Below are positions 13,095-62,240 of a stretch of DNA of 64,000 nucleotides, in pieces (position 1 is the first letter of the stretch; each line of letters starts with the position of its first letter). The stretch comes from Microscilla marina ATCC 23134 (GTDB lineage Bacteria > Bacteroidota > Bacteroidia > Cytophagales > Microscillaceae): NCBI RefSeq assembly GCF_000169175.1, contig NZ_AAWS01000036.1, positions 1 through 64,000 on the forward strand, given 5' to 3'. Below the pieces are notes generated by a model. The model worked only from the letters and a program-made list of their open reading frames with translations, was not told where the DNA came from and made no database searches. The translations under genes were made by a program, and so were the position numbers.

Positions 13095-14306
13095 CTATAA
13101 CCCCACAATCACTCCGTCCAAAACCTCATTATCAAACTTACTCAAATAATGCTGGGTAGTATTAAGGTCAGCATGCCCTAAAGCTTCTGATATTACATCG
13201 GTGGCAATCCCTGTTCTTTTCATGGTAGTAGCCGAGGTATGTCTGGCAGTATAAAAAGTAATATGGGTTTCAATACCTTGGATTTTGGCGATTGCCTTTA
13301 AATCTTTATTTACTTGTCCAAGTATCTTTTCACTTCTGTTTTTTTTCTGAATGGGGTCAATGTGTACTTCTTCATCAAGTATAGGAAATATGTATTTTTT
13401 ATGCGTTCTGAAATGCTCAATGATTTCTAGTACTTCATCAGTAACCAGTAGGCTAAACTGTTTCCCTGTTTTTTGCCTTACATATTGTAAACGTCCATTG
13501 GTGAGGTTGGAGCTTTGCAAATTGCAGATATCAATGAAGTTGATGCCAAACAGTTTAAACGAAAACATGAAGTATCTCCAAGAGTTAGCTAAATCAGGAA
13601 ACCCATCTACATCAAAGTCTTTGAATTTTTGCAGCTCTTCTTCTGTCAAGCTTTTAGGGTTTTTCTTAGACTTAAGCTTTGATATCGCATAGCCATCTTT
13701 ATTGGTTGTAGTGCTATATGGGTTGGTCTCTTTTTTTGCATAACCACGTCTTACAGCTTCGTAATAAATAGCTCTGATAGACCTCATTCTTACACTGATA
13801 CCACCTGCGGTATTTCCACGAGCAAATAGTTCAGTCTCGAAGCCCTTTAAGAGATTGTAATTGAGCTTATCAAAGCTAAAATCTTTAGGATGATATTTTT
13901 TAATAGTGTTGTAGGCATCTTTGTAAGCCTTGAGCGTGCCAGCTTTACCAAGTGACTTTTTTTCAGCAATCATTTCTTCAAAGAACTGATAGAAAGTTCT
14001 TGTGTCATCTTTCTCTCCTTTGAACAATTTTTTGAACTTTTGGTAGTCAAATCGTTCGCCTTGCCTTATAAACTCCTCAATGATTTCGCTTGCATGTAGC
14101 TCGTGTTTGCGAATGTTTAAATTCTTAGCTTTTGCGTTGGGGTGACTTTTGCGAAATCTACCTTTAGTAGTATCAAACTCGTTAGGAAAAGCACTATAGC
14201 CAAGAGATAAACGGTAAGGTTTATCTTCGTAAATGTAGAGCATCACAGGATGAGTACCATCCTTTAAAGTCTTTTGTTTGTAGAGAATTGTCTTGACGTT
14301 TGACAT
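13095..14306 (-). CDS. Tyrosine recombinase / phage-type integrase (Bacteroidota type)
   Basis: About 403 residues from ATG at 14306 (MSNVKTIL); a longer frame starts at 14339. The N-terminal part matches the Arm-DNA-binding/SAM-like core seen in Bacteroidota integrases. The C-terminal catalytic domain has TARHTSATTMKRTG (the HxxR motif), then EALGHADLNTTQHYL with the second His and the catalytic Tyr. The first catalytic Arg, usually in a ...(Y/L)RGMNF... motif, appears as LFGINF, so strand-cleavage activity may be reduced. It lies about 110 bp from the 3' half of a tRNA-Arg, the classical arrangement for an element that integrates into a tRNA gene. It ends in an intrinsic terminator. Confidence 0.92.
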   Translation of the reverse strand: MSNVKTILYKQKTLKDGTHPVMLYIYEDKPYRLSLGYSAFPNEFDTTKGRFRKSHPNAKAKNLNIRKHELHASEIIEEFIRQGERFDYQKFKKLFKGEKDDTRTFYQFFEEMIAEKKSLGKAGTLKAYKDAYNTIKKYHPKDFSFDKLNYNLLKGFETELFARGNTAGGISVRMRSIRAIYYEAVRRGYAKKETNPYSTTTNKDGYAISKLKSKKNPKSLTEEELQKFKDFDVDGFPDLANSWRYFMFSFKLFGINFIDICNLQSSNLTNGRLQYVRQKTGKQFSLLVTDEVLEIIEHFRTHKKYIFPILDEEVHIDPIQKKNRSEKILGQVNKDLKAIAKIQGIETHITFYTARHTSATTMKRTGIATDVISEALGHADLNTTQHYLSKFDNEVLDGVIVGL

Positions 14307-14414
14307 TCTGGTGTAAATATAGTGTAAAAAAATAAGCACTATATGTCACCTATTGAGTGATGGGTAAAAAGTTAAGTGACTGATTTACAATAACTAAAGA
14401 AAATTAATTTTCAA

Positions 14415-16471: not shown

Positions 16472-19400
16472 TTATCTGGGGTTTCGTTTTTTGGCAGCCT
16501 GTATCACCGCCGCTGTAATCTTTTTGTGGGCTTGTTGCACCTCAGGCACACCGCTTTCCAAGTCGAGGTAATCGTCTATATCAGACCTTAACTCTTTTAC
16601 TTTAGACTCCTTGTTCCACAGGTTCGGAATGTCTAAATACTCGCCCAATATTTCCAAAATGCGCCGCACCACTGCCGCCAATTGTTGCTTTTGCTCGTCA
16701 GAGAGTTCATCGTTGGTTTGGTGTAGTTCGCCCACATTGATTAAATCATAATAAAACATTCCCTCCTTGCTCAATCCCAGGTCTTGGTTGGCTTGGCGAC
16801 CTTTGCGCATTTCGTTGCGCAAGTTAGACAATTCGCTTGCTATTTCCTCCCATTTGCCCGCATGATTGGTCATGATGTCCTCTATTTTTTTGCTAAAGTC
16901 GGCTTGCAACACCTCATCGTCTTGCAGGTTGTCTTTGATGTGGCGGCGCATGGCGTGTGCCATCTCCGATGCCTTGGCTTTGGGTGTGAGGGCGTTGCGG
17001 TCAAGTTCTTTCGGAAACTCGTCAGACAACAAGCTCACCTGTGCCACCTTGGTGTCTATGCCCAACGACTCTAGGTGTTGGTCTATCATTTTGCGCACCT
17101 TGGCTTTTGCCCAGCCCAAGTCCATTGTAGGGTCTTTGTAACGTTGGCGTATGCGGTTGGCAAGGTAGCCCAGGCGTTTGCCCGGAATGTGGTATTCTTG
17201 AGCTTGGGGTACATTGAACAAAGTATCGAGGCTATGCAAAAAGTCTTTGAGCAATACATCAAACTCCGCCCTAAAAGCAATATTTTCGGCAGCCTCTACG
17301 CAAGCCTCCGTTATGTCTAGCTCTAGGTCTTTGTCTTTGAGCCTTTGGTACACAAAATCTTCAATATCGGGCAAGCCACCTTTTTCTACCAAAAACTGCA
17401 TAAAGCGATCAAAGCGCGATTCTAAAATGGGTATTTCCTTGTTAATGTCACGGAAATAGTCAGTAAACTCCTGCCATTCTTCGCTGTCTATGTCATCATC
17501 GGCATAAATGGCAAGGGCTTCTTTCAGGTTTTTGGTTACCCCAAAATAATCTACCACCAAACCGTGGGTTTTGCCCTTACGGGTACGGTTTACGCGGGCT
17601 ATAGCCTGAAGCAGTTCGTGTTCGCGCAGGTTTTTGTCCAAATACATCACCTGCTCAATGGGTGCGTCGAAGCCCGTGAGCAAGCGGTCGCACACGCACA
17701 AAAAAGCAATGCCCGTGGCGGGTTTGTGATAGTCAAAATCTTTTTTGAAGTTCGCCTCCGCCTTCAGTTTTTTAGCCTTGTTATACGCCTTCTTCACGTA
17801 GCCTTGCTCGTTGTGCGAGCCAATGCTCACCACCGTGCAAGCATCCAAAAACTCCAGCTTTTTTATCAGCTCAAGGTCGGGGTGGGAGCGGGCTTTTTCT
17901 TCGGCAATGCGTTCTTTGATGGCAGCAAGTATTTGAGCTTCGTAGCGTGCTGCGGCTATTACCGACGGAGCCACTACTTGCGCCTTAAACCCATTGGGCA
18001 GCACATCGGCAATATAGTGCGCCACCATATCGCGGGCGTTTTTCTTGATGCGGTCATCGCTCTCTAAATAAGCCGTGATGGTGCCGTACCTGCGCTCAAT
18101 CTCAGCTTTTTCTTTGGGCGTGCGTTGGCTAAACTCGTCCTCAAACTGTTGGTGCAGCTTTGTCGAGTCTACCCTATCTTTGCTGGTTTTGCCTATGTAT
18201 AATATATCGGTAGTAGCCCCATCGCGCACCGCTTCTTTGAGCGTGTATACATCTATAAAACCGCCAAAACGCTGTTGGGTGGTTTGTTTGTGGCGGTTGG
18301 TGAGCAAGGGCGTGCCCGTAAAGCCCAACTTGGTGGCATTCGGAAAAGCCAAAAACAAATTGTTGCCCATGTCGCCGCCTTGGGTGCGGTGCGCCTCGTC
18401 TACCATCATCAATATGCGGTCAGAATCGTTTACCGTAGAAAACTGCTTAAACTGGGGCACATCGTCTGTTTGCTGCATTGCTTTTTGCAACGATTGGGCG
18501 TGCTTTTGCTCTTCTTCCAAAAACTTATGAATCATCACCATCGTGAGGTCAGAGCTATTGCCCGAAAGGGCAGTAGGCAGGTCATGCCTATTGTTTACCT
18601 TGCGCACTTGGTCTTTGGTATACGCCAAAGTCTCCGAGAGTTGACTCTCTAGGTCTACTCTGTCTGTCACCACTACCACCTTAAAATCTTTGAGTGCTAC
18701 CGTATTGCGTAGTTTTCTCACCAAAAAAGCCATCGTGAGCGACTTGCCCGAGCCTTGAGTATGCCAGACCGTGCCCGACCGCTCCATTGGGCTACTTTGT
18801 TGGTGCAACCGCTCCAGTATCTTGCCCACCGCGCGGTATTGTTGGTAGCGGCAAATAATCTTGACCTCTAGCTGTTGGTTGGGCTGAAAAAACAGCGTAT
18901 AGTTTTGCCACACATCTATGAGCACCTCAGGGTTGAGCAAACCACTAATCATCACCTCTTGGTGCACGGCAGGGTCTTTGGTGTGTTGGTTGGGGGTGTA
19001 TTGGGCAATGGGGCGCGTTTTATATTTCTCAGGAAAAATGTCTTTCCAATGGGCATAATGCTCCATTTCGCCGCTAATGGTGCCCACTTTAGCCTCTATG
19101 CCGTGGGTAAGCACGCTAAACAAATTATAATAAAACAAACGCGGCTCACCCTCTATAGTGTGGGCATTATAAACATCGTCCTGGCGTTGGTTGGCATAGC
19201 GCCTGAGCTGGTCGAAGGCATCAGAGAGCGGGTCGGCTACGTCTTGGTCTTTGCACTCTACCACCACCCAGGGCAACCCATTGACAAACAGCACAATGTC
19301 GGGAATGATGCAGCTATTTACTCCGTGGGGCGTGTTTACCCTAAACTGGGGCACGGCATCGAACAAGTTGTTTTGCCAATGGTCGAAATCGACAAATTGT

Positions 19401-19762
19401 ACCAAGGCATTTTTTTGTTGGGTCACCTCGTTTTTAGCCACCGTGTCGCCCTCTTGTACCCGCTCAAAAATCGCCTTGTTGGTTTCGTGCAAAGTAGAGC
19501 TACTCTGCTCTAGTTGGATAAACCCCTGCAAGAGCTCGTCTTTTTGTTTGGCGGTGAGCCAAGGCTTGCCATTGGGTAGGCAGTTGACAAGGTCGAGGCT
19601 TTCTTTGAAACGTTCGGCAAGCACCACTTCGTCAAAGTTGTTGCGCAACGATTCTTTAGCCGATTTTGGGATGCCCTTGCGGGTTTTGGGGCGATGTATT
19701 TGCCAACCCAAACCGCTGAGTTGGTCTAAAAAAGGGCGTTCTACATTTGTGTATTCCGACAT
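16472..19762 (-). CDS. hsdR: Type I restriction enzyme R subunit (HsdR)
   Basis: 1096 residues. The nuclease core of the PD-ExK type is visible as IIPDIVLFVNGLPWVVVECK (Asp155, Glu169, Lys171). The helicase motor follows: Walker A HTQGSGKS at about 334-341, the DEAH box (MMVDEAHRTQ), and a motif-III-like LGFTGTP. C-terminal parts carry the usual HsdR helical region. HsdR translocates unmodified DNA and cuts it at a distance, using specificity from HsdS and methylation status from HsdM. It is the third gene of the minus-strand operon hsdM-hsdS-hsdR, but a 297-bp MITE sits between hsdS and hsdR, 36 bp upstream of this start, and could alter its expression. Confidence 0.97.
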   Translation of the reverse strand: MSEYTNVERPFLDQLSGLGWQIHRPKTRKGIPKSAKESLRNNFDEVVLAERFKESLDLVNCLPNGKPWLTAKQKDELLQGFIQLEQSSSTLHETNKAIFERVQEGDTVAKNEVTQQKNALVQFVDFDHWQNNLFDAVPQFRVNTPHGVNSCIIPDIVLFVNGLPWVVVECKDQDVADPLSDAFDQLRRYANQRQDDVYNAHTIEGEPRLFYYNLFSVLTHGIEAKVGTISGEMEHYAHWKDIFPEKYKTRPIAQYTPNQHTKDPAVHQEVMISGLLNPEVLIDVWQNYTLFFQPNQQLEVKIICRYQQYRAVGKILERLHQQSSPMERSGTVWHTQGSGKSLTMAFLVRKLRNTVALKDFKVVVVTDRVDLESQLSETLAYTKDQVRKVNNRHDLPTALSGNSSDLTMVMIHKFLEEEQKHAQSLQKAMQQTDDVPQFKQFSTVNDSDRILMMVDEAHRTQGGDMGNNLFLAFPNATKLGFTGTPLLTNRHKQTTQQRFGGFIDVYTLKEAVRDGATTDILYIGKTSKDRVDSTKLHQQFEDEFSQRTPKEKAEIERRYGTITAYLESDDRIKKNARDMVAHYIADVLPNGFKAQVVAPSVIAAARYEAQILAAIKERIAEEKARSHPDLELIKKLEFLDACTVVSIGSHNEQGYVKKAYNKAKKLKAEANFKKDFDYHKPATGIAFLCVCDRLLTGFDAPIEQVMYLDKNLREHELLQAIARVNRTRKGKTHGLVVDYFGVTKNLKEALAIYADDDIDSEEWQEFTDYFRDINKEIPILESRFDRFMQFLVEKGGLPDIEDFVYQRLKDKDLELDITEACVEAAENIAFRAEFDVLLKDFLHSLDTLFNVPQAQEYHIPGKRLGYLANRIRQRYKDPTMDLGWAKAKVRKMIDQHLESLGIDTKVAQVSLLSDEFPKELDRNALTPKAKASEMAHAMRRHIKDNLQDDEVLQADFSKKIEDIMTNHAGKWEEIASELSNLRNEMRKGRQANQDLGLSKEGMFYYDLINVGELHQTNDELSDEQKQQLAAVVRRILEILGEYLDIPNLWNKESKVKELRSDIDDYLDLESGVPEVQQAHKKITAAVIQAAKKRNPR

Positions 19763-20228: not shown

Positions 20229-21539
20229 TTATGCCCCTTTCGGGGAAACCATTGCCTCGGCTGCCTCTACCGATACCTTGCCCGTGAGCAAGTCTTGCAT
20301 AAGGGCTTGTTTGAGGGTTTTTAGTTTTTGAAATGATTTTTGTTCAGACTCAATTTGCTTCTCCAAATTATTCAATTTTTCTACAATGTTATTTTGCTCT
20401 TGAATACTTGGGGGTTGAGCAATTTTAAACTCTCTAATTTCCTCTAGGTGTAGGTTAGTTACCGTACCTTGTTTAGCTTGTCTTATTATTTGATTTTTTA
20501 TAAGTTCTGATTTTAAAAAGTATAGTAAATATTCTACATTAATTAGTCTATGGTTTGGTTTAATTAAAGCAAGGCTAACAAAAATAGAAAATTCCCAATC
20601 CCAGTCAACTACCTTAGGAATCCCAATTGTACCATTCTTAGATAATAGTAAGTCTCCTTTTTCAGGATTACATCGTTTAGTTAGTATTTGATGTTCTTCT
20701 AGTGAGACAAACTTTAGTTTATCAAAATTAATATCCTTTGTTTGAACATCTGTTACTCTTAAAAAAGGTATTCCACTTTCAGTATATTTAGGGGTATGAT
20801 GAGTCCCATCTATTATTTTCAAAGTTAAGTCTTCTAACCGTACAAAACTATAGTCCTTTGGAATCCAGCCCAACTCCGTTTTTTGATACAATTCGGGGGC
20901 TACTTGGCGAGGCGGGCGCAACTTGCCCGTGCTTACATCAATGCCTCGGCTAAACAAATCTTGCATCAGCCCCTCTTTGAGCGTTTGGTATTTCTCAATG
21001 GCGCGTTGGGTGCCATCAATCACCCGATCTACTGTGCTCAATATTTGGGCGATTTTGCGTTGATAAGTTAATGGAGGATACTGTACTACTAAGTTTAATA
21101 TGCGGTATAAAGCAAGTTTAGGTACACCTCCTCCAATACCTATTTCTTTGTTAATTTGTGATTTGGTTTCTTCAGAACTTAGGTAGTATTGCAGATAATT
21201 TTTGTCAATAATGCTTTTGTCTATGTTTGTGATTTTAGCCGCATTCTCTGTTAGTAAGGCATTATGAAGTAATTCAGGTATGTTTCCTACGGAGCCAATA
21301 GTTCCTGCAATAGTAATGTATAAGTCATCTGCTGATATTCTATAGTTACGAATAACTTTTTCTATTTCTTCATCTACATATTGTAAATTAGAAGTGTCAA
21401 TGCTTCCATTTACCATATCTGTTACTCTTAGATATGGGTGTTTGGTAGGAGTTAGCGAAAATTCTTTTCCCGCAGGTAATCTTTTACCTCCTTTTACTTC
21501 TGCAAAGTCTTGTATTTTTTTTTCTTCCCAATTACTCAT
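20229..21539 (-). CDS. hsdS: Type I restriction-modification specificity subunit (HsdS)
   Basis: 436 residues with two target-recognition domains. TRD1 starts with [21 protein letters not shown]2 with [17 protein letters not shown]. Each is followed by the coiled-coil linker helices ([17 protein letters not shown] and [21 protein letters not shown]). The subunit holds two HsdM copies and reads the bipartite DNA site; the two TRDs differ, so the target should be asymmetric. The start overlaps hsdM by 8 bp, a normal arrangement. The A+T content of the TRDs is clearly higher than that of hsdM and hsdR, consistent with TRD exchange. Confidence 0.96.
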
Positions 21540-24297
21540 ACCCCAATTCCATTAAATACCCATTCAACAATTCATTGGCTTGCTCTCTTTCGCGTAAAAT
21601 CTCCTGCAAAGTAGTATTATACTTGTCCCAAAGGCGTTCGAGAGCGGTTGCCAAACCTCGCTGGTAGCGTTGCACATAATCCATAATAATGTGGTGCAAA
21701 CTGCGTTGCCAACGCGCCAAAATAAGGGCTTGTGCCTCGGCTTGGCTTATCTTTTCGCGGGCTTTGTCTACCAAGTCCTCCTTGCGTTTGCGTATTTCGC
21801 CTATCACTTTTTTGCATTCTTTCAGCTCAGTTTCTAGGTCGAGGTGGGGTTGTAGCTCGGCTTGCAAGGCGTCGCGGTCGGTTGCTACATCGGCTCGCTC
21901 GGCGTGCAAATTGTTCCATTCGGCTATCAATTTTGCGAGTGCCTCGTTCAAGCCCTCTTCCATTGCTTTGAGCTGGGCAAGTTGGGCTTGGTTGGCGTCG
22001 CTTTGTTGTTGGTGTTCGGCTATTTGTTTTTCCAAATCTGCCTTTTTGCCAGTTTCGGCAGTTTTGAGTTGCTTTCGCAAATCTGCTAAAGCTTTTTTGC
22101 GCGTTGCGTTGTCGGCTTTCAAGGCTTTTTCGGGCACGGCGGCGTTTTTCTTGTAGCGCGCGTGCACATTTCTGAGCAATTTATCATATTTTCCTATTTT
22201 GCCGTTCAGCCCCTTGAGCCTCTCCTTCATCCTTTTGAGCTCGTCTTTGGGGTACACCCATACCTCTTCTAACCCCGTGCGCTCGTCTTCTTTTTCTTGG
22301 TATTCTTCGGGGCTCAAAGCGTTTACCTCGGCAAACAACGCCTCTATTTCGTCGCGGCGTGCCTCGTTTTGGGCAAGCTCGCGCAACACCTCAGGAAACT
22401 GCGATTGCAATATCTCGTCGTCAGGAATCAGTTCGGCGTTCCAATTACTCGCCGCCACCGACTTCAAATCGGTTTCTATAGCGTCCCAATAAGTAGCAAA
22501 AGCACCTCGGCTTTTGTACAAATCCAACACCCCCAAACGGCTAAAATCTTGGGCTATAGTTTCCGAAAAAGTTTGCAACAACTCATACACATTTTTGCGC
22601 TCAGGCAAGGCTTGTAGCTGGGGCAAGTGCTGTTGCCACCATTGGGCGATGCTGTCTTCGTATTGTTGGTGCTTTTGGGCTATTTCGGGGCTTTGCTCCA
22701 GCGCTGCCTTCAGCGTGGCTTTGTCGGCTATGCTGTCGGCAAACTGCATATAACCAGCTTGTGAGGGGTAAGGCACCAGCACGCGTTCGCGCAGCCCAGG
22801 GTAGTTTTGCCAATAAGCCTCTAGTGCGGCTACCTCGGCGGCAGGAATGCCCCCGTGCAAATGCGCCCGCACGTCTTGAGGTTCGGCAGGGGGCGAGTTG
22901 TCTACATAGCGGCGAATGTTAAAATTATAATCTTCGCGCAAAAAATCGTTGTAGCTCATCAAGCGTGAATATTGGGGCAGCTCTTGGCGCTGATGATACA
23001 CATAAGTAATCTTGCTGATGTCTTCGGGGCGCAGCTTGTTTTGGTTTTTCTCTTCCTTGTACTCGCGGTCGGCATTGATAAACAACACCTTGCGGCGTTT
23101 GTCAGCCCCTTTTTTATTGATAATAATCAAAGAGGCAGGTATGCCTGTGCCGTAAAACAACGAAGCAGGCAAGCCAATCACCGCATCGAGGTAGCCTCGC
23201 TCAAGCAGCCAATGGCGCATGTCTTTTTCGGTGCTCCCTCTAAACAACACCCCGTGCGGCATCACCACGCCCATTCTGCCGTTGTCTTTGAGCACCCGCA
23301 CCATGTGTTGCACAAACATAAAATCAGCCTTGCTTTTTTCGGGCATCCAGTGCCTAAAGCGGTCTTTGAAACCTATGATGTTATCTTGCTTATAATCTGC
23401 CGAAAAAGGCGGGTTTGCCATCACTACATCAAAGCGCTGAAGCTCGCCATCTACTACATGCAGCGGGTTGTTAATCGTGTCGCCTTGCTCAATTTTAGCG
23501 TCATAAATGTCGTGAAAGAGCATGTTCATTTTGCACAGCGCCCAAGTGGTGCCGCTGAGCTCTTGCCCATAAAAACTCAACTTAGACGCGTTGTTGTAGC
23601 GTGCCTCTACGTAGTTTTTGCATTGAATGAGCATCCCACCCGAGCCACAAGTAGGGTCGTATACCTCGGCGTTGGGGGCGGGCTCTAGCAATTGCACCAT
23701 CAGCTTTACTACCTCGGCAGGGGTATAAAACTCGCCCCCCTTTTTGCCCGCACTATCGGCAAAAAACTTGATCAAATATTCGTAAGCCGCCCCCAATATA
23801 TCAGGAAACTCAAAGTTTTCGTCGCGCAAGTCTACCGTGTCGAAATGCTGAATAAAATTAATCAGCTTGGTATCGTCGAGCGTTTTTTTGTTTTTGCCAA
23901 TGGTGCGGTTAAAATCAATGCTCTTTAGCACCCCCGACAGCTTATCTAGGTTGGCGTCTTCTATAGCCGCCAAAGCCTTGTTGAGCGCATCGCCCACGTG
24001 TTTTTTAAGGTGTTGAATCCCGTCTTTGCCCTTCCAGCGGGCGTTTTCGGGGATGTAATAATCATAGGCATTGGCTTTGTTGAGCGCACGGGCGACCACC
24101 TCGGCAGCCAGCCCTTTTTTTTCTAGTGCTTTGCGTCGTTTCTCTTGGTCTTGCTCAAACTTATCGTTGAGGCGTTTTAAAAACAAAATGCCAAAAATGT
24201 ATTCCTTGTACTCTGAGGCATCCATGTTGCCTCGTAAAATATCACAGGCTTGAAACAAAAAGTTTTCGAGCCATGCCAAAGTAATTTTCTTTTTCAA
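21532..24297 (-). CDS. hsdM: Type I restriction-modification DNA methyltransferase subunit (HsdM), extended
   Basis: 921 residues. HsdM N-domain at about 1-160, then the adenine-N6 methyltransferase core with [10 protein letters not shown], motif [10 protein letters not shown] at about 214-222 and motif IV NPPF (about 294-297), so it should be active with S-adenosylmethionine. At 921 residues it is far longer than the usual 500-550: after about residue 490 there is an added region that includes a long Lys/Glu/Gln-rich coiled-coil stretch (about 640-830). It may brace the HsdS/HsdR contact. First gene of the operon; its stop overlaps hsdS. Confidence 0.95.
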
Positions 24298-24403
24298 TAT
24301 CTATTAGTTTTTTAGTCAATAGTCGGGAGTCGGTAGCTTCTTATTTAGTCGATAGTTTCTCAGAATTGATAATTACCAATTAGGAGTGTGTGAAGCTTCG
24401 AAA

Positions 24404-24513
24404 ATCCTTGATATACAAGTGTTTACGTGTAAATTAAGGGCAAATTTGTAGGGGCTACCCCTTGCTGTAATGCAATGGAAGTTCTCGATTTATCGGAATG
24501 GTCGCCCTAGCGA
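24404..24513. repeat. Dispersed repeat, copy 1
   Basis: TTGATATACAAGTGTTTA...GTAGGGGCTACCCCTTG...GGTCGCCCTAGC, with further copies at 34003 and 49356. The central GGGGCTACCCC can fold as a hairpin. Confidence 0.65.
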
Positions 24514-24639
24514 AAAACAGACAACTTAATGAAGCAGCCGCTTCGCGAACCATAAAGCCATAAAACAATAAAACCATACATTCATACATCCAAGCGTAAA
24601 TATACAAAAGCTATATTGCGAACAGCGACCCTTGAGTGC

Positions 24640-24674
24640 TTTTTTGCAAAGGCTTGGTGTTTTCTGTATCTTTG
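24640..24674 (+). promoter_or_regulatory. Bacteroidota-type promoter for the ncRNA
   Basis: TTTTTTG at 24640-24646, a 20-bp spacer and TATCTTTG at 24667-24674. This fits the Bacteroidetes consensus TTTG/TTG-N19-21-TAnnTTTG very well, and transcription is predicted to start near 24681. Confidence 0.75.
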
Positions 24675-24681
24675 TATATAA

Positions 24682-24836
24682 TAAAAAAAAGGAATCTCAG
24701 GCAAGGCGACAAACCTCTCCTGTAGTTTTACTCATCCTCAAAGCACACTCGCCAAAGTTACTGCTTTGGGTTTTCAAACTGTCAGATTCCCTTATCAACT
24801 TAATGAAGAGCAGGTGTATACACACTTGCTTTTTTT
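24682..24836 (+). ncRNA. Candidate free-standing structured RNA, about 155 nt
   Basis: It lies between a consensus promoter and an intrinsic terminator, with no real coding frame. GGAATCT-CAG (691-700 of its kilobase) pairs with CTG-TC-AGATTCC (779-790) to form a closing stem. Inside are GGCGA/TCGCC and a CCAAAG/CTTTGG hairpin (which compete). The architecture of one long closing stem around an internal region followed by a terminator resembles 6S RNA, but I cannot show that it belongs to that family. The genes on both sides are on the opposite strand, so it is not a leader of any of them. Confidence 0.6.
24809..24836 (+). terminator. Intrinsic terminator of the ncRNA
   Basis: GCAGGTGT-ATAC-ACACTTGC (one G-T pair), then TTTTTTT. 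Confidence 0.85.
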
Positions 24837-25046
24837 GTGTTCAATGTTTTGTCAGCGTTCTGTGTTATTTTTATTGTCAATCAATTATTTTCTAAGTCAA
24901 GTTACGCAAATTTGATTTATTGTTTGAATAACTAGGAGTTGAGCAACGCTTCGCGCAACCATAAAACCATAAAGCCATCTAACAATTAAAGTAAGTAGTG
25001 TTGGATCACAATGTGTAACATCAGTTGCTAAGTCAATCACTTGTCA

Positions 25047-26462
25047 CTAAAAGCTTGACTCTGCAAAAACGTCTACCCAAGCCTCCAAGAGTGAGCTTTG
25101 GTGTTGGCTGAGCCCACCCGCGTTCAATAGCGCCTCGGCATCTGCCAAAAACCGTTCTATCGACCTCTTTCTGCCGCCTTTGTAGTCTTTCAAAGTGGCT
25201 AAGTCGCTCACTGGAGCCACACTGTCAGCAATAAACCTTTGCCAATCGGTAGTCATACCCAACGCCCCCATGTCGTGCACAAAGTTGCGGTACAAAATGC
25301 GTTGGCCAATAGCTGCCGTCCGTTGAGTAGGCGCCGTGTTTACCACCTGCATTTTTTCCTGGGCATTGGGCGCCTCGTGAAACTCAGCAAAAAAACGTTT
25401 TTCGTTTGTTGCCCAAAAACCTCCTTGGTACAACTGAGCGTCCAGGTCTACATTGTTGCGGTGGGCAAAACTTTTTCCTGCCACATATTCGCCCAATTGC
25501 TGCATCAAGTTTGGGTTATTAGCCACAAAAGCTGCATTGCGTTTGATAAGTGCCCCACGTGCCGCATCAAACACAGCAGGATCGCGGTGTTTCCAGTTCA
25601 GCAATAGCTTTTCGTCGGTCAACTTTTTCTTTTGCACCCAAAAACGGCTTTCGAGGTTTTTGGTGTTCAAAGTGCTCAAGTCGGGATCATCGAGCGGTAC
25701 ATAATGCACATCTTTTCCTACCTGCCCCAACACGTGCACAGGCTGTTGAAAACCAGCGTCAGCGCCTAGTTGTGCGTCTACCAAGAGCGCCCCATTTACC
25801 CCTTCTATTTGTCCTTGGGCAGCTTTTACTCTGTTTTGATCTTCTTTTTTGTCAAAAAAGCCCAAAGCCTGTTCCCAGAGCATAGGGTTGGCATTGTGCA
25901 GTAGTTTTGCCAGCTCCATGATGGTTTGGGCATTGGTAGCACCTTTGCCTACAGTCAAGCCATTTGCCTGCGCTATATCATCCAGTTCAAGGCTCACCTT
26001 GCCCGCCGCATTCTTCGAAAACACCAATGCATTGGGTGCTTGGAGGTAATACAACGTCACTATAGTCCGCAAGTCTACACGTCGGCAACTCCGTTGCCAT
26101 TGGTGGGTATAGGGGGTTAAGCCATTGCGGTAAAACCCAAAGCGCACCAAGAGGTCGTCGTTGTTCAGGTTGCCATAGCCTACATTATAGCTATGGGGCG
26201 TATTGAACAACTCGTGTATGTGGCGCATTGCCTCATACTCGGTACTGCCCTTAGCTAAGTCTGAAGGGAGCCAATTGTTGGCAATGAGCGCCTCTGGGCT
26301 AGGCACCACATCGGGGCGTTTTTTTATCTCTATATGATGCGTTTCCAATAGGTTGAACGCGTGGTCGGTAACATACGTGTCCGCTCGTAGTATTTGGTCA
26401 AAAACGGGGTTGTCGCCCGATGACCTGGTGTCGTAAAACACCAAATTTTTGTTTTTTATCAT
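25047..26462 (-). CDS. Exonuclease I (SbcB)-like protein with a degenerate active site
   Basis: About 471 residues from ATG at 26462 (MIKNKNLVFYD); a longer frame opens 16 codons earlier. It aligns with E. coli exonuclease I along its length: FYD at residues 9-11, GYGNLNNDD at 95-103, a WxxxxxRxDL block near 122-131, and the C-terminal NVDLDAQLYQGGF block near residue 350. In active ExoI, D15, E17, D108, H181 and D186 bind the metals. Here D11 and D102/D103 remain, but E17 is Arg (FYDTRSS), and the H..D helix (AHDAMAD in E. coli) is ATNAQT or similar, without His or Asp. It is therefore predicted to bind but not digest single-stranded DNA. Last gene of the operon single-TRD HsdS, HsdM-like, this. 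Confidence 0.82.
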   Translation of the reverse strand: MIKNKNLVFYDTRSSGDNPVFDQILRADTYVTDHAFNLLETHHIEIKKRPDVVPSPEALIANNWLPSDLAKGSTEYEAMRHIHELFNTPHSYNVGYGNLNNDDLLVRFGFYRNGLTPYTHQWQRSCRRVDLRTIVTLYYLQAPNALVFSKNAAGKVSLELDDIAQANGLTVGKGATNAQTIMELAKLLHNANPMLWEQALGFFDKKEDQNRVKAAQGQIEGVNGALLVDAQLGADAGFQQPVHVLGQVGKDVHYVPLDDPDLSTLNTKNLESRFWVQKKKLTDEKLLLNWKHRDPAVFDAARGALIKRNAAFVANNPNLMQQLGEYVAGKSFAHRNNVDLDAQLYQGGFWATNEKRFFAEFHEAPNAQEKMQVVNTAPTQRTAAIGQRILYRNFVHDMGALGMTTDWQRFIADSVAPVSDLATLKDYKGGRKRSIERFLADAEALLNAGGLSQHQSSLLEAWVDVFAESSF

Positions 26463-26624
26463 TATAAATGGATTAAAATTAAGTAACAAGACAAAGTTAT
26501 TGGTAAACAATAGTACGTTTTTAACTGATTTACTATCAGCGATTTAATCGCACAAATTCTTAACACCAATCGCTTGCTACAGCTTTAGTTTACTTGTAGC
26601 TGATGGCTCAAGGCTTGTAGCTAC

Positions 26625-27920
26625 TCATAAATCTAAAAGATCACCAATATTATTATCTAGCGTACCTCGTAGCTCAGCTAAACGAGTCTTGAGCGTTTGC
26701 TCCTCCTGCGCCAGTTCTTCCAAAGACTTTAGTTCTTCTTTGGTAGCTTTGGCAGGCACCAATGCAGCGATGTTCATACCCATATGGGCATCATAAAGTT
26801 GTTCGTTTTTATACACTTTACTAAAAAATTCCACCTCCTTTCGTTGTTCTATAGTATTTACAATTTTTTCAATATCTTCGGTTTCCAGCGTTTTATAACG
26901 GGTTTTTGCTTGGTTGATGTGTTCGGCATTGATCACCACCACCTCGTCGAACCGTTGGCTGGTGTCAAACACCAACATCACCATTTTTATGCGCGAGTAA
27001 AACTTCTGGTTAGAAGGCAACGCCACTATAGCCCGCAACATGCCGCTTTTCAATAGTTCGATTCTCAAATTTGCCACCTCATACTCGTTGCGCGGACTGC
27101 CCTTATACAATATAGCGGCACTCGTTACCAGCGCCGACATGCGCGCTTGTTTAATATAAGGCAATAGCTCACTCACCAAGCTATGCGGATGTTGTTTGCG
27201 CACGGGTAATATGCCCAACACCGTGTCTACAGGGGTAAGCGCGTAGTCTTTTACCCGCAAAAAAGGACCAATGTCTAAGTGCGTATTTTGCCAACCCATG
27301 ACAAAAGCAGTACACTGACTAATGAGGTGCGCATCGGTTACTTGGTCGAGCGCCCATAGTTCGCGACTCGTGCTAGGCTTTTGTTGGTGCAGTGCCAGGG
27401 CTATGCCATTGCCATAGGCAAAAGGGCAATAGAGACTCCGTAGCTCTGGCGAAAGCCTTGCCGCCAAGGTTGCCAATAGTTGATTAAAACCCACAGGGTC
27501 GCCCCAACCATCGGTAGCACTGGGATGGGTCAAATATTGGTTTACCACCTGTACATATATTTGCTGCCAGTCTTCGGGCGGAGCGGGGCGTTGCCACAGT
27601 CTATTTATAATGCTGCGCCAATGAGCTATAGCCTCGGCATCTACAAAGCGCTTACTAAGGTTGAGTAGGTTTCTGAAAGGCACTGCCTGGTCTATGCCCA
27701 AGTGCGCCCCCAGCTTGTCAGCCACTTCTTTGAGCTCCTCTATGGTGGAGTACATCCCCCTTAAAAAGGGCATTATATCAAGGTTTTTGGGCAGCTTTAG
27801 CCTTTTGCCTGCCTGTGCCCACACCAACAAAAACAGCTGTAGCCCTATGTACTCATTGCTTTGCTTTTGACTCAACTCCTCAAACTCTTGCAGTAATTTA
27901 GTTTTTTTGCTTTGTTTCAT
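26625..27920 (-). CDS. HsdM-like protein lacking methyltransferase motifs
   Basis: 431 residues that follow the HsdM fold: a helical N-domain, then a methyltransferase-like core. SAM motif I, normally DPTCGSGGM, reads CPFAYGNGI (165-173), and catalytic motif IV, normally NPPF/Y, reads GILPVR (236-241). The neighbouring landmarks are still HsdM-like: WALDQVTDAH... (the GxE.n.. strand) and VTSAAILYKGSPRNEYEVANLR...LRAIVALPSN.KFY (the HsdM VLPxGVLFRG...LxAVIGLPxxLFY segment). So a genuine homologue has lost catalysis. It ends in a Leu/Glu-rich coiled coil. Its start overlaps the upstream single-TRD HsdS gene by 23 bp, which is strong evidence that the two subunits work together. A dead methyltransferase next to an S-like subunit suggests a DNA-recognition complex, not a modification enzyme. 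Confidence 0.85.
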   Translation of the reverse strand: MKQSKKTKLLQEFEELSQKQSNEYIGLQLFLLVWAQAGKRLKLPKNLDIMPFLRGMYSTIEELKEVADKLGAHLGIDQAVPFRNLLNLSKRFVDAEAIAHWRSIINRLWQRPAPPEDWQQIYVQVVNQYLTHPSATDGWGDPVGFNQLLATLAARLSPELRSLYCPFAYGNGIALALHQQKPSTSRELWALDQVTDAHLISQCTAFVMGWQNTHLDIGPFLRVKDYALTPVDTVLGILPVRKQHPHSLVSELLPYIKQARMSALVTSAAILYKGSPRNEYEVANLRIELLKSGMLRAIVALPSNQKFYSRIKMVMLVFDTSQRFDEVVVINAEHINQAKTRYKTLETEDIEKIVNTIEQRKEVEFFSKVYKNEQLYDAHMGMNIAALVPAKATKEELKSLEELAQEEQTLKTRLAELRGTLDNNIGDLLDL

Positions 27921-28518
27921 CTCCCGTTATTTTGTTTAACACTCCCTTCAATATTTGTTTGCGCACCCCTTGCAATGCCTCAAAGTCTCGCGCCTCTTGC
28001 TGAAGCAGGGCATAAGTTTGCGCTATTTTTTGTTGCACTTGTAGGGCAGGCAAGGGTACTTCTATGTTTTCTAATACCTTCATAGAGATATTCTTGACGG
28101 TTGCCCCCGTGCCCTGTTGGGCAAAATAGCCTTGTGCCGCTTCGTTGAGGTACCACACCACATACTCTAGGTGTAGGCGACTTTTCCAGTCGCGTTTGTA
28201 CCTCAGAATAAAAAAATGGTTGCTAGGCACTGCATACTCATCCGTGCTCAAATTGCTCAAAGGTATGGTAGTGTTTCGGTCGCCCTTTGCCACAAACAAC
28301 AAATCGCTGCGATGTAGCAAACGGTCTTCGTTGGGTATTTCCAACGCCATTGCTTCCACTTTGCCCCAATCTACCTTGCCCAAACTATGGTCAATGTGTT
28401 TCATTTTTACTACTTGCATAGGGCGCGCCTTGGCGCTCTCGGTGTAGCGCTTGGTAAGGGTTGCCCCACTTTTTATAATAAACAATTCCCCCAATGGTAT
28501 TTTTTCTACCTTTTCCAT
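27898..28518 (-). CDS. Single-TRD HsdS-like half subunit
   Basis: 206 residues, about half a normal HsdS. It begins with the TRD opening IPLGELFIIKSGATLTKRY, contains the AVPSNHFFILRYK-type core (about 120-135), and ends with the conserved helix pair PLPALQVQQKIAQTYALLQQEA and VRKQILKGVLNKI. Half-size S subunits can dimerise to form a palindromic recognition module. It is the first gene of the three-gene operon and overlaps the HsdM-like gene by 23 bp. Two direct copies of a promoter-like block lie upstream (28576-28726). Confidence 0.85.
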   Translation of the reverse strand: MEKVEKIPLGELFIIKSGATLTKRYTESAKARPMQVVKMKHIDHSLGKVDWGKVEAMALEIPNEDRLLHRSDLLFVAKGDRNTTIPLSNLSTDEYAVPSNHFFILRYKRDWKSRLHLEYVVWYLNEAAQGYFAQQGTGATVKNISMKVLENIEVPLPALQVQQKIAQTYALLQQEARDFEALQGVRKQILKGVLNKITGDETKQKN

Positions 28519-28575
28519 AAGCTGTCTCTTGTACTTTGTTTAAACTTTCTTTTTTTGATAAAGAAGTTTTGTGAA

Positions 28576-28726
28576 ACAAAGGTAGTAATAATTATTTAAC
28601 CAATATAGAGGGATAAAAAAGGTTTTATCTATTTTTGCCACAATCGGCAAGTAATCACCCATACTTTTTAGGTTTGTATGACAAAGGTAGCATGTATTTT
28701 TGTTTCAAGCAAGATAGAGGGATAAA
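28576..28726 (-). promoter_or_regulatory. Two copies of a promoter-plus-upstream-box upstream of the HsdS-half operon
   Basis: On the minus strand TACCTTTG (a TAnnTTTG match) is preceded by TTTATCCCTCTAT in both copies. In the distal copy TTG lies 20 bp before TACCTTTG, the ideal spacing; in the proximal copy the spacing is about 16. The shared TTTATCCCTCTAT box may be an operator. Transcription from the proximal one would give a leader of about 50 nt. Confidence 0.55.
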
Positions 28727-28957
28727 TATTCGAAAAATTCTTGTTTGGTAAAAAACTTCCCACAACTGACATTCATCAAGCTTCATGATATTCAACCATA
28801 TTCAGTTTTACACAAGTCAATCAGTAGTACCTTTTAAAGTTACTTGATCTCGATGCATTAGGAGATATGTTCTAAACCGGACAGTTATTGCGATCACGTT
28901 CCTAAGTATCATTGTTATCAAGATTAGCCAGTGGGTGTTCCTGCTGGCTATTTTTTT
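28727..28957 (+). terminator. Orphan intrinsic terminator (28925-28957) on the + strand
   Basis: TAGCCAG...CTGGCTA followed by TTTTTTT. No plus-strand coding gene precedes it within 400 bp, and all nearby genes are on the minus strand. The 200 bases upstream hold no coding frame, so it may end a small RNA; its promoter is not clear (a weak TACCTTTT at 28826). Confidence 0.6.
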
Positions 28958-29082
28958 AAACGGTGGTTTTTGTAAACACGAAATGACTTATAGTGTTCTA
29001 ACCTAGGTTTGAGCGAAGTGATAACTCAGGAATATAAAAGACAGATAATATACTTGGTTTTGGTTACACGCTGCCGAGCAGT

Positions 29083-29511
29083 TTAGTTACTTCTTCCAAG
29101 AATATAGGTTTTGAAAACATATTTCCAAGGGGTAAAAATAATTGGAATAACAATCAAGATAAAAACTTGAGTCCACCCTTCTTCTTCGGTTCCCGAAAGT
29201 TGATCGGTTTTCCAAAGAGGATATGCCACAAAACAAAGCCACAGGCCTTTATAAAAATACATGAACAGCATGATGGGCAACATTTTTAACGTGCGAAACA
29301 CCCCTACACCTGCCAATGTGGTATAGGCAGCTATGGCACACCAAGCAATGGCAATTTCAGGGTTCCACTTTTTTTGATGGGTAAATAGTTCTATCCAGGC
29401 ATCTTTGGCAGCAAACAGAAACATGAGCAAAAAGAAGAGTTTCATCACATATACCTGAATAGGCAAAACGCCCTCATATTTTTCGGAAGGTTTGAATAAG
29501 TTTTTTATCAT
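29083..29511 (-). CDS. Small integral membrane protein, unknown
   Basis: 142 residues with four hydrophobic stretches (about 25-40, 52-70, 78-97, 110-130) and a C-terminal basic segment, so it is predicted to be a four-helix inner-membrane protein. I cannot name a family. The nearest neighbour is a Crp-type regulator on the same strand, 81 bp upstream, so the two may share a transcript. Confidence 0.65.
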   Translation of the reverse strand: MIKNLFKPSEKYEGVLPIQVYVMKLFFLLMFLFAAKDAWIELFTHQKKWNPEIAIAWCAIAAYTTLAGVGVFRTLKMLPIMLFMYFYKGLWLCFVAYPLWKTDQLSGTEEEGWTQVFILIVIPIIFTPWKYVFKTYILGRSN

Positions 29512-38232: not shown

Positions 38233-38280
38233 TATAGAGTGTTGATGTATTACTTACATTTGTTATTTCAAATGTCTATA

Positions 38281-40460
38281 AATGCCTTTCGGTAAGACCT
38301 TCGCGGGAGGTGTTATAATGTTGTGATGGTTCGTCAGGCGCCCCTGGCGCAAGCTTCCTTCGCTTGTGCTTATAATTGCGAAAGCATCTTGCCCCGAAGC
38401 AAGTTCGGGATGGCTCACTTCCATGTTTTTGCAAAAAAACAAATACTCAATCTTGAATTTGCTACGATGGACACAAGTCTGGAGACTTGCGCCAGCGTGT
38501 GTGTTAAAGCTACTGACTACCGTCTCCCAACTCTTGACTTGAACGTTGCTCAGGTCACCCTTCGGTAAGACCTTCGCGGGAGGTGTTATAATTGATGGTT
38601 CGTCAGGCGCCCCTGGCGCAAGCTTCCTTCGCTCGTGCTTATAATTGCGGAAGCATCTTGCCCCGAAGCAAGTTCGGGATGGCTCACTTCCATGTTTTTG
38701 CAAAAAACAAATACTCAATCTTGAATTTGCTACGATGGACACAAGTCTGGAGACTTGCGCCAGCGTGTGCTAAAAAATCCTGGAAGGTTTTCGCAGTCAA
38801 TTCAACAAAAAAACTACCTCTCCCGTGTTGGTCTTCAGGCTTTAGCCCGACCAACCACTGCCAACTCAAGGGCTTGTAAATGAGTTTTTACTAACCCCTC
38901 ATTTGATGGACAAGTGATTTTTCCAACTCTTGACTTTAATATTGCTCAGGTCACCCTTCGGTAAGACCTTCGCGGGAGGTGTTATAATGTTGTGATGGTT
39001 CGTCAGGCGCCCCTGGCGCAAGCTTCCTTCGCTTGTGCTTATAATTGCGAAAGCATCTTGCCCCGAAGCAAGTTCGGGATGGCTCACTTCCATGTTTTTG
39101 CAAAAAACAAATACTCAATCTTGAATTTGCTACGATGGACACAAGTCTGGAGACTTGCGCCAGCATGTGCTAAAAAATCCTGGAAGGTTTTCGCAGTCAA
39201 TTCAACAAAAAAACTACCTCTCCCGTGTTGGTCTTCAGGCTTTAGCCCGACCAACCACTGCCAACTCAAGGGCTTGTAAATGAGTTTTTACTAACCCCTC
39301 ATTTGATGGACAAGTGATTTTTCCAACTCTTGACTTTAATATTGCTCAGGTCACCCTTCGGTAAGACCTTCGCGGGAGGTGTTATAATGTTGTGATGGTT
39401 CGTCAGGCGCCCCTGGCGCAAGCTTCCTTCGCTCGTGCTTATAATTGCGAAAGCATCTTGCCCCGAAGCAAGTTCGGGATGGCTCACTTCCATGTTTTTG
39501 CAAAAAACAAATACTCAATCTTGAATTTGCTACGATGGACACAAGTCTGGAGACTTGCGCCAGCATGTGCTAAAAAATCCTGGAAGGTTTTCGCAGTCAA
39601 TTCAACAAAAAAACTACCTCTCCCGTGTTGGTCTTCAGGCTTTAGCCCGACCAACCACTGCCAACTCAAGGGCTTGTAAATGAGTTTTTACTAACCCCTC
39701 ATTTGATGGACAAGTGATTTTTCCAACTCTTGACTTTAATATTGCTCAGGTCACCCTTCGGTAAGACCTTCGCGGGAGGTGTTATAATGTTGTGATGGTT
39801 CGTCAGGCGCCCCTGGCGCAAGCTTCCTTCGCTTGTGCTTATAATTGCGGAAGCATCTTGTTTCCATGTTTTTGCAAAAACAAATACTCAATCTTGAATT
39901 TGCTACGATGGACACAAGTCTGGAGACTTGCGCCAGCGTGTGTGTTAAAGCTACTGACTACCGTCTCCCAACTCTTGACTTTAACGTTGCTCAGGTCACC
40001 CTTCGGTAAGACCTTCGCGGGAGGTGTTATAATGTTGTGATGGTTCGTCAGGCGCCCCTGGCGCAAGCTTCCTTCGCTTGTGCTTATAATTGCGAAAGCA
40101 TCTTGCCCCGAAGCAAGTTCGGGATGGCTCACTTCCATGTTTTTGCAAAAAACAAATACTCAATCTTGAATTTGCTACGATGGACACAAGTCTGGAGACT
40201 TGCGCCAGCGTGTGATGGTTCGTCAGGCGCCCCTGGCGCAAGCTTCCTTCGCTTATGCTTATAATTGCGGAAGCATCTTGTTTCCATGTTTTTGCAAAAA
40301 ACAAATACTCAATCTTGAATTTGCTACGATGGACACAAGTCTGGAGACTTGCGCCAGCGTGTGGAGACTTGCGCCAGCGTGTGCAAAGCGAAAACTGCCA
40401 ACTACTGTCTCCCAACTCTTGACTTTAATGTCGCCCTGCGGTAAGACCTTCGCGAGGTAA
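38281..40460. repeat. Repeat array A: hairpin-bearing 250-400 bp units
   Basis: Unit starts (TTCGGTAAGACCTTCGCG) lie at about 38287, 38561, 38957, 39357, 39757 and 40002, with a partial at 40437. Three units are exactly 396-400 bp long. Each contains CCCGAAGCAAGTTCGGG, CAAGTCTGGAGACTTG and (in long units) GTTGGTC...GGCTTTAGCC...GACCAAC. These can fold as hairpins. Open frames in this array repeat from unit to unit and are artefacts. It spans the whole gap between the DUF5916 and next T9SS genes. The same family forms array B. Confidence 0.9.
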
Positions 40461-61029: not shown

Positions 61030-62205
61030 GTTTTCGCTTCGCCCCTAGCGCAAGCGTCCTTCGCTTGTGCTTATAATTGCGGAAGTATCTTGCCCCGAAG
61101 CAAGTTCGGGATGGCTCACTTTCATGTTTTTGCAAAAAAACAAACATACAAGTTTGAATTTGCTACGATGGACACAAGTCTGGATACTTGCGCCAGCGTG
61201 TGAGGTCTGGGTAGGCAATTCAACCAAAAAAACAACCTCTCCCGTGTTGGTCTTCAGGCTTTAGCCCGACCAACCCCAACCAACCCAGGGGGCTTGTGCT
61301 TATAATTGCGGAAGCATCTTGCCCCGAAGCAAGTTCGGGATGGCTCACTTTCATGTTTTTGCAAAAAAACAAACATACAAGCTTGAATTTGCTACGATGG
61401 ACACAAGTCTGGAGACTTGCGCCAGCGTGTGAGGTCTGGGTAGGCAATTCAACCAAAAAAACAACCTCTCCCGTGTTGGTCTTCAGGCTTTAGCCCGACC
61501 AACACCTACCAACCCAAGGGGCTTGTGCTTATAATTGCGGAAGCATCTTGCCCCGAAGCAAGTTCGGGATGGCTCACTTTCATATTTTTGCAAAAAAACA
61601 AACATACAAGCTTGAATTTGCTACGATGGACACAAGTCTGGAGACTTGCGCCAGCGTGTGAGGTCTGGGTAGGCAATTCAACCAAAAAAACAACCTCTCC
61701 CGTGTTGGTCTTTAGGCTTTAGCCCGACCAACACCAACCAACCCAGGGGGCTTGTGCTTATAATTGCGGAAGCATCTTGCCCCGAAGCAAGTTCGGGATG
61801 GCTCACTTTCATGTTTTTGCAAAAAAACAAATACTCAACCTTGAATTTGCTATGATGGACACAAGTCTGGAGACTTGCGCCAGCGTGTGTGTTAAAACTA
61901 CTGACTACCGTCTCCCAACTCTTGACTTTAACGTTCTCCCGTGTTGGTCTTTAGGCTTTAGCCCGACCAACACCAACCAACCCAAGGGGCTTGTGCTTAT
62001 AATTGCGGAAGTATCTTGCCCCGAAGCAAGTTCGGGATGGCTCACTTTCATGTTTTTGCAAAAAAACAAACATACAAGCTTGAATTTGCTACGATGGACA
62101 CAAGTATGGAGACTTGTGCCAGCGTGTGTGTTAAAACTACTGACTACCGTCTCCCAACTCTTGACTTTAACGTTGCTCAGGTCACCCTTCAGTAAGACCT
62201 TCGCA
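61030..62205. repeat. Repeat array B: five 229-239 bp hairpin-bearing units
   Basis: Units begin with CTTGTGCTTATAATTGCGGAAG at about 61064, 61293, 61522, 61751 and 61990 (spacings 229, 229, 229, 239). Each carries CCCGAAGCAAGTTCGGG, CAAGTCTGGAGACTTG and (most) GTTGGTC...GGCTTTAGCC...GACCAAC. They are the same modules as in array A. Confidence 0.9.
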
Positions 62206-62240
62206 AGGAGGGGAAATTGGGACAGGTCAACATGAAAACA

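Follow-up and report, generated by a model that had tools for sequence, protein, structure and literature searches.

Among the closest described systems is the hsdRSMS locus of Staphylococcus xylosus, in which hsdS_short, a gene for a specificity subunit of about 191 amino acids (aa) with a single target recognition domain (TRD), is followed at once by hsdM and then by a long hsdS (PMC10030836). According to its authors hsdS_short is never found as part of a long hsdS, and its role is left open in their discussion (PMC10030836); statements on published systems here and below refer to extracts of the cited papers. For the methyltransferase M.AhdI, which has a separate single-TRD S subunit, the composition 2M+2S is reported (PMC3874165). 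Here we describe a set of three genes in a 64,000-nt stretch of the genome of Microscilla marina ATCC 23134 (contig NZ_AAWS01000036.1, positions 1 to 64,000; the window): S', a mini-S gene resembling hsdS_short, M', encoding an HsdM-like pseudo-methyltransferase, and Exo', encoding an exonuclease I (ExoI)-like pseudo-exonuclease (Table 1). The trio is real, unusual and alone in the data searched. We read S'-M', with a likelihood that we place a little short of even, as a catalysis-free DNA-binding pair that came from the mini-S/hsdM head of operons with the order S-M-S-R (mini-S, hsdM, full hsdS, hsdR), and Exo' as a protein kept for binding.

The mini-S gene S' and the HsdM-like protein M'

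The open reading frames (ORFs) of all three genes are uninterrupted and agree with an earlier sequence-only reading of the locus, which had described a three-gene set with a 23-bp overlap of S' and M'; S' thus lies directly before an hsdM-like gene. GC content by codon position is coding-like in S', M' and Exo' (0.53/0.32/0.51, 0.55/0.34/0.51 and 0.57/0.37/0.54 respectively), near the values of the adjoining hsdM and hsdR (0.57/0.33/0.57 and 0.56/0.32/0.59) and unlike those of the adjoining hsdS (0.48/0.31/0.28).

The sequence-only reading took S' for half of an HsdS, a view that the comparisons do not uphold. With hidden Markov models (HMMs) of the two classes of mini-S locus described below, S' scores 113 bits (class A) and 71 bits (class B), and against the window's own HsdS only 26.6 bits. 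A tblastn search of 72,556 plasmids with S' matched 5 records, all of them mini-S loci, as against 2,715 records for an HsdM of the kind paired with mini-S. In the four annotated matches a separate gene of 191-213 aa stands immediately 5' of an hsdM of 505-507 aa, a full hsdS follows and hsdR falls within the fetched stretch in three of the four; the fifth, unannotated match (L083) has the order mini-S, hsdM, full S by its ORFs. A profile built from S' and four plasmid relatives and run on 177 genomes of the window's order gave 14 matches at E < 1e-27, the window's included, with frames of 190-224 aa, below which weaker matches grade down into ordinary HsdS. Sixteen loci from this list were fetched and 14 read as mini-S loci; the class counts exclude L127, a mini-S match with a stop, and L128, whose match is inside a full HsdS. 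The family is of about 185-213 aa, has a single TRD and is separable from long HsdS by sequence, and S' fits it. Its members lie immediately before hsdM in 22/22 plasmid loci (19 annotated and three, L083, L162 and L163, by ORFs) and before hsdM in seven order loci as well, two of which (L123 and L129) have a small ORF between. No Staphylococcus record was among the matches listed for the mini-S plasmid queries. Judged from these HMM scores and plasmid matches, S' is a member of a distinct, hsdS_short-like mini-S family and not half of an ordinary HsdS.

The S'-M' unit has no full hsdS and hsdR of its own, Exo' coming after M', and 749 bp past Exo' a complete conventional type I system (hsdM, hsdS, hsdR) begins, downstream and in the same orientation. 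One explanation for S' is that it is a working hsdS_short for this true HsdM-HsdS, M' and Exo' being passengers. S. xylosus does need hsdS_short and hsdS_long together for proper methylation (PMC10030836), and S' is upstream of hsdM-hsdS-hsdR. However, mini-S adjoins hsdM in the 22 plasmid loci and is at most one small ORF away from it in the seven order loci, whereas S' is separated from the true hsdM by 3.6 kb and two genes, and the window's 921-aa HsdM falls outside class A, among other HsdMs, in a grouping that lacks strong support. We consider this explanation improbable.

In M' the Pfam N6_Mtase match covers residues 253-395 only. Alignment with true HsdMs confirmed that motif I (DPTCGSG) has become CPFAYGNG and that motif IV is lost, NPPF and about 24 following residues being gone with LPVR at the edge of the gap, as the sequence-only reading had proposed. 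The SAM (S-adenosylmethionine) and catalytic motifs are therefore lost and the C-terminal part retained; in HsdM it is the C-terminal part that adjoins the S subunit. Residues 1-314 of M' were found in its own genome only, among 395 genomes of the class and 395 of the phylum (the lists overlap). With the whole protein 30 of 96 genomes matched, its own included, and outside its own record the matches start at residue 223 or later, although some single BLAST alignments with ordinary HsdMs extend back to residues 115-152. Among plasmids and phages 556 and 2 records matched, none over 80% of M', and among the matches listed the annotation is mostly ordinary HsdM. Searches of viral contigs and genome contigs with exact short patterns, which detect close relatives only, found none. 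Since the genome, class and phylum searches returned its own genome or C-terminal matches, M' is without a close relative in the data searched.

Mini-S/hsdM pairs and their promoters in other genomes

The mini-S loci fall into two classes. Class A comprises working S-M-S-R operons: in its seven order loci a mini-S gene is followed by an hsdM with NPPF and a full S gene, and hsdR is present in six, the contig of the seventh being too short. The plasmid set consists of the five S' matches, ten annotated loci from two other mini-S queries and seven added later, and these 10 + 7 additional loci share this layout to the extent that the fetched stretches show it. NPPF is present in the HsdM of 7/7 order and 22/22 plasmid loci, and motif I varies in a few. 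Intact homologous operons had been named in the sequence-only reading as the sign that the genes were in isolated decay; pairs with an intact HsdM exist in class A, and for S'-M' that sign is therefore present. M' itself lacks the NPPF that marks class A.

In class B (family f5) the gene after mini-S encodes an HsdM-like protein of 467-491 aa, and no relative of full S or R was found in the 5-15 kb examined around the pairs at seven loci. Both genes are present in 8/8 f5 genomes examined. Motif I is kept (YDPAxGxG), and the catalytic Asn of NPP(F/Y) is replaced by His or Gln (HPP or QPP) in 8/8; for genome G091, whose L135 missed the motif pattern, the reading is that of L119, in which the gene has a shorter C-terminus, and one stop falls inside the HsdM match. 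Purifying selection acts on both genes (five pairs; dN 0.10-0.57, dS at least 1.23 or saturated). Conservation of S exceeds that of M in 21/21 class B pairs (mini-S 58-85%, HsdM 39-67%), and M exceeds S in 55/55 class A pairs (HsdM 49-84%, mini-S 23-53%); because class A draws on much more distant relatives, the comparison to make is of S with M inside each pair and not of identity levels between the classes. A fixed target with a relaxed HsdM is what would be expected if the class B pair only reads DNA. At the two class B loci with Pfam-searched neighbours these are metabolic genes, namely glucosamine-6-phosphate isomerase/PIG-L and an oxidoreductase at L114 and deoxyhypusine synthase and an aquaporin at L116. 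M' does not belong here either, as it has lost motif I too and scores better with other groups than with class B, and it could have become a dead HsdM independently. The conserved pairing of mini-S with a dead HsdM points to the reuse of defence-enzyme components as a DNA-binding switch, with restriction components kept for sequence recognition alone. To this extent the sequence-only proposal of a DNA-binding module without catalysis holds, in a pair conserved throughout f5; carried over to the trio it would be an extrapolation. The search for the arrangement elsewhere that it had recommended returned mini-S/dead HsdM pairs and not the three-gene arrangement.

Two palindromes of fixed spacing recur ahead of class A mini-S genes. 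GCATNA-N7-TNATGC has 9 copies at 7 loci, reading GCATCA-N7-TGATGC in the Methylobacter plasmid operon L079, and CTGTA-N7/8-TACAG has 12 copies at 8 loci. An exact palindrome is present in 15 of 25 loci, none of which has both motifs, and in six loci two copies are 58-73 nt apart. In the 262,731 bases of the 25 loci all exact copies of both motifs are inside mini-S promoters, including one that is at +86 relative to an annotated start set too far upstream but 25 nt 5' of the conserved start; the chance expectation, assuming even base composition, is about 0.25 and 0.5 copies respectively. The count leaves out the minus-strand loci L120, L124, L125 and L129. As the motifs were derived from part of the 25 loci, seven loci fetched afterwards served as a test: in four the motif expected from their mini-S relatives was present as an exact copy, L159 and L161 had a variant of the same spacing, CACCA-N7-TGGTG, and L160 had none. 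Tests for palindromes in general gave a weaker signal than the two motifs, with palindromes in 19/22 loci against a shuffled mean of 10.0 (0/300 shuffles reached 19) and, in another form of the test, in 23/29 against 16.4 (3/200); at single loci 4/19 gave p < 0.02, one of these being class B, and the rest were mostly not significant.

Two inverted half-sites with a fixed gap are what a pair of identical recognition domains reads at a type I site (PMC3874165), and the palindromes have this form. We infer that mini-S, probably with HsdM, binds them and controls the operon. A limited literature search, covering extracts of papers, found no report of mini-S promoter palindromes controlling the operon. 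Within a working operon, mini-S would recognize a palindromic two-part site in the operon's own promoter, probably in the form of a dimer borne by HsdM (M2S'2, as in the published Type 1 1/2 methyltransferases), and mini-S/HsdM would be the autoregulator of its own type I operon. Were HsdM catalysis then lost, the pair would remain as a pure sequence-specific binder, a regulator without catalysis. We propose, tentatively and with rather more doubt than belief, that S-M-S-R operons hold such a built-in autoregulator, possibly methylation-controlled, that it has been freed at least once, in f5, with loss of R, long S and catalysis to leave the core sequence-specific binder, and that the window version gained a pseudo-exonuclease. 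The promoter palindromes offer the mini-S family a directly testable job.

Ahead of S' itself there are two tandem modules, each holding TTTATCCCTCTAT (at 28617-28605 and 28726-28714), a 13-mer that is exact at these two window positions only, and a TACCTTTG box, which we take to be a promoter consensus of the Bacteroidota type. From their sequence the modules look like a regulated promoter. The window S'-M', whose members would bind each other and DNA, might be placed as an extreme and rare case that binds the tandem promoter ahead of S' and perhaps also the hsdMSR operon next to the trio, with M' putatively descended from the same HsdMs. Scans for sigma-70 promoters and terminators were at chance level.

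Exo' and the standing of the trio

Exo' may start at a TTG (26510; 487 aa) or, more likely, at an ATG (26462; 471 aa), 162 nt from M'. It matches Pfam Exonuc_X-T_C (9e-7), NCBIfam exodeoxyribonuclease I (1.6e-40 over 19-479, under the family cut-off) and the PADLOC RTasSbcB model for the ExoI-like protein of DRT (defence-associated reverse transcriptase) systems (2.7e-30). In residue numbers that we take to be those of E. coli ExoI, DxE has become DTR (Glu17 to Arg) and the HxxxxD block KGATNAQT (His181 absent, Asp186 to Asn), and Asp15 and Asp108 are kept, leaving the DEDDh set incomplete; the loss of Glu17, His181 and Asp186 read from the sequence alone is confirmed by alignment, in intact frames.

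Closest to Exo' are a protein from an Aureibacter plasmid (L044, 30% identity) and three metagenome proteins (L050-L052, 29-34%). All four have intact active sites, no M' or S' relative is near them in the fetched stretches, and their neighbours, from annotation for L044 and from ORF reading without Pfam for the others, are unrelated or housekeeping genes. An Exo' profile matched 22 of 390 order genomes, its own included; the nine strong matches apart from the window (E < 1e-50) are from a single genus and have the site intact in 9/9, and the six fetched with flanks had neither an M nor an S relative in these. Of 16 relatives 13 were aligned (L034, L035 and L042 being left out), and 11 proved intact and two, from Pseudomonas megaplasmids, degenerate. 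No relative was found in viral contigs; 56 plasmid and 2 phage records matched, of which five plasmid ones were examined. The two degenerate proteins (L045 5983-7365, plasmid of Pseudomonas strain H15; L047 5983-7386, pQBR57) are each followed by two unknown genes and are a second case of an ExoI-like pseudoenzyme. As an equivalent of the trio they were rejected, since the next two genes matched no type I component in Pfam and PADLOC searches or, for L045, in direct comparison. On a Rhizobium plasmid (L046 5995-7395) an intact ExoI-like gene (PADLOC RTasSbcB, 3.5e-105) adjoins helix-turn-helix and ImmA/IrrE genes, with multiubiquitin/ThiF genes near; an incomplete gene table of this 13-kb stretch shows no reverse transcriptase.

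Exo' keeps 71 of the 108 residues that are invariant in its four nearest relatives. Within three Exo motif blocks, with bounds of our own choosing, 22 of 35 conserved residues are lost, compared with 15 of 73 outside them (Fisher 2.7e-5), and the C-terminal part has 23-27% identity to relatives that share 22-34% among themselves. This concentration of losses in the Exo motifs argues for the pattern of a pseudoenzyme more than for even decay. Decay is nevertheless the main rival explanation: the trio would be what remains of a mini-S/hsdM operon together with an exonuclease acquired by capture, their frames still unbroken. It would fit with a trio that is conserved nowhere in the searches, with the extreme divergence of M' and with the intact relatives that each gene has. 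Three clean frames of coding-like composition are less readily explained by it, as is an Exo' in which the catalytic blocks are hit far harder than the rest and C-terminal divergence is similar to that among the relatives; moreover, two different enzymes losing catalysis and yet staying open is unlike the first outcome of neutral decay. On balance we regard decay as unlikely.

If the trio is a functional set, Exo' could be a pseudo-exonuclease retained for binding and not for cutting. Another possibility, compatible with a DNA-binding S'-M', is that Exo' is an unrelated neighbour and S'-M' the sole unit. The intergenic gap before Exo', set against the overlap of S' and M', points this way, and no ExoI-like gene was seen near mini-S at the 14 order loci read. 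Exo' does, however, share the strand of S'-M', a similar codon-position composition and a parallel loss of catalysis, and we hold its independence to be quite possible, if short of probable.

Several observations weigh against deriving S'-M' from the head of S-M-S-R operons as a regulator. No second copy of the trio was present in any other genome searched, and the conserved context assumed in the sequence-only reading is not borne out, given that M' 1-314 is confined to its own genome and Exo' relatives are intact and stand-alone. Neither class A palindrome occurs ahead of S', 10 of the 25 class A loci are without an exact motif, and the class B promoters share no common palindrome (some palindrome in 5/7 loci, 4.6 when shuffled). 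HMM scores of M' are highest with other type I HsdMs (77 bits; class A 58, class B 41), and its placement by tree failed, its branch being saturated at a length of 10; joint descent of S'-M' from class A or B is therefore conjectural. S' scores higher with class A than with class B, and the window pair is not tied to the f5 pairs. Finally, the published hsdS_short is reported to be needed for methylation and, in the extracts consulted, is not described as a regulator (PMC10030836). Of all the cases described here the trio is the most degenerate, and it can serve to probe the limits of such reuse.

Neighbourhood of the trio and comparison with known systems

Past the conventional hsdMSR genes and a YgjP-like peptidase gene, about 2 kb beyond hsdR, the window encodes a tyrosine integrase with an Arm-DNA-binding domain (13095-14339), and the restriction block may be inside an integrated element. 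This setting bears on a role of the trio as a defence sensor, in which S'-M' would mark or occupy sites and Exo' would hold single-stranded ends or ends coated with SSB (single-stranded DNA-binding protein) and trigger restriction or abortive action. The trio is beside hsdMSR with the integrase not far beyond, and Exo' has its RTasSbcB match; recurrence with other defence genes was not found, however, and the three genes show no evident enzymatic output. We think a sensor decidedly unlikely. Of the sensing module beside a true type I system that had been suggested from the sequence, it is the adjacency that stands, and nothing beyond position was found to tie the trio to defence.

In the gap between Exo' and hsdM an 8-nt repeat (ACCATAAA-like) forms two short tracts (24548-24593 and 24949-24994). 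Elsewhere in the window there are repeated units of about 400 bp (38263-40415 and about 61777-62235), and the near-identical ORFs that these give on both strands are probably spurious. An Rfam scan of 24200-29100 matched no family.

Table 1. Features of the window and sets of comparison loci
Feature	Position or loci	Strand	Basis
S' promoter region, two tandem modules about 105-109 nt apart	28518..28740	-	repeat search
S', mini-S (hsdS_short-like), single recognition domain, 206 aa	28518-27898	-	ORF; Pfam Methylase_S 1.9e-8
M', HsdM-like pseudo-methyltransferase, 431 aa	27920-26625	-	ORF; Pfam N6_Mtase 6.2e-12; alignments
Exo', ExoI-like pseudo-exonuclease, about 471 aa	26462-25047	-	ORF; NCBIfam exodeoxyribonuclease I; catalytic losses
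True HsdM, 921 aa, DPTCGSGG and NPPF intact	21532..24297	-	ORF, Pfam, NCBIfam
True HsdS, two specificity domains	20229..21539	-	Pfam, sequence comparison
True HsdR	16472..19762	-	Pfam, NCBIfam
YgjP-like peptidase gene, after hsdR	16467-15787	-	ORF, Pfam
Class B loci	L114-L119, L122; G052:C1:1319662-1321727		seven read, the eighth (G052) by coordinates
Loci with exact palindrome 5' of mini-S	L079, L080, L082, L083, L126, L149, L151-L154, L158, L162-L165		

Set beside known systems, Exo' resembles exonuclease I (SbcB) over its full length, its nearest relatives at about a third identity or somewhat less, and differs in its broken DEDDh site, the relatives being intact and stand-alone. RptR is likewise the product of the first gene of its operon, a homodimer that represses a type I operon promoter through palindromes (PMC12255303); however, it is a 79-aa helical protein that is not HsdS-like and uses 6-bp palindromes (PMC12255303), and size and make-up rule it out as the known equivalent of mini-S. 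In BlihIA an additional single-TRD HsdS stands beside a full HsdS and its authors speculate on a regulatory role (PMC12429846), whereas neither a dead HsdM nor an operator appears in the passages drawn on from that report (PMC12429846). The Type 1 1/2 methyltransferases (M.AhdI, M.BsaBI) have, like S'-M', a separate M and a single-TRD S (PMC3874165), and by analogy with them a palindromic two-part site would be expected for S'-M'; they differ in being catalytically active enzymes of Type II systems (PMC3874165). S. xylosus hsdRSMS is alike in gene order and in the size of its small S, and S' likewise matches only mini-S genes in plasmids. It differs in that HsdM, full S and R are all present, and it is by layout and size that it is likened to the mini-S set.

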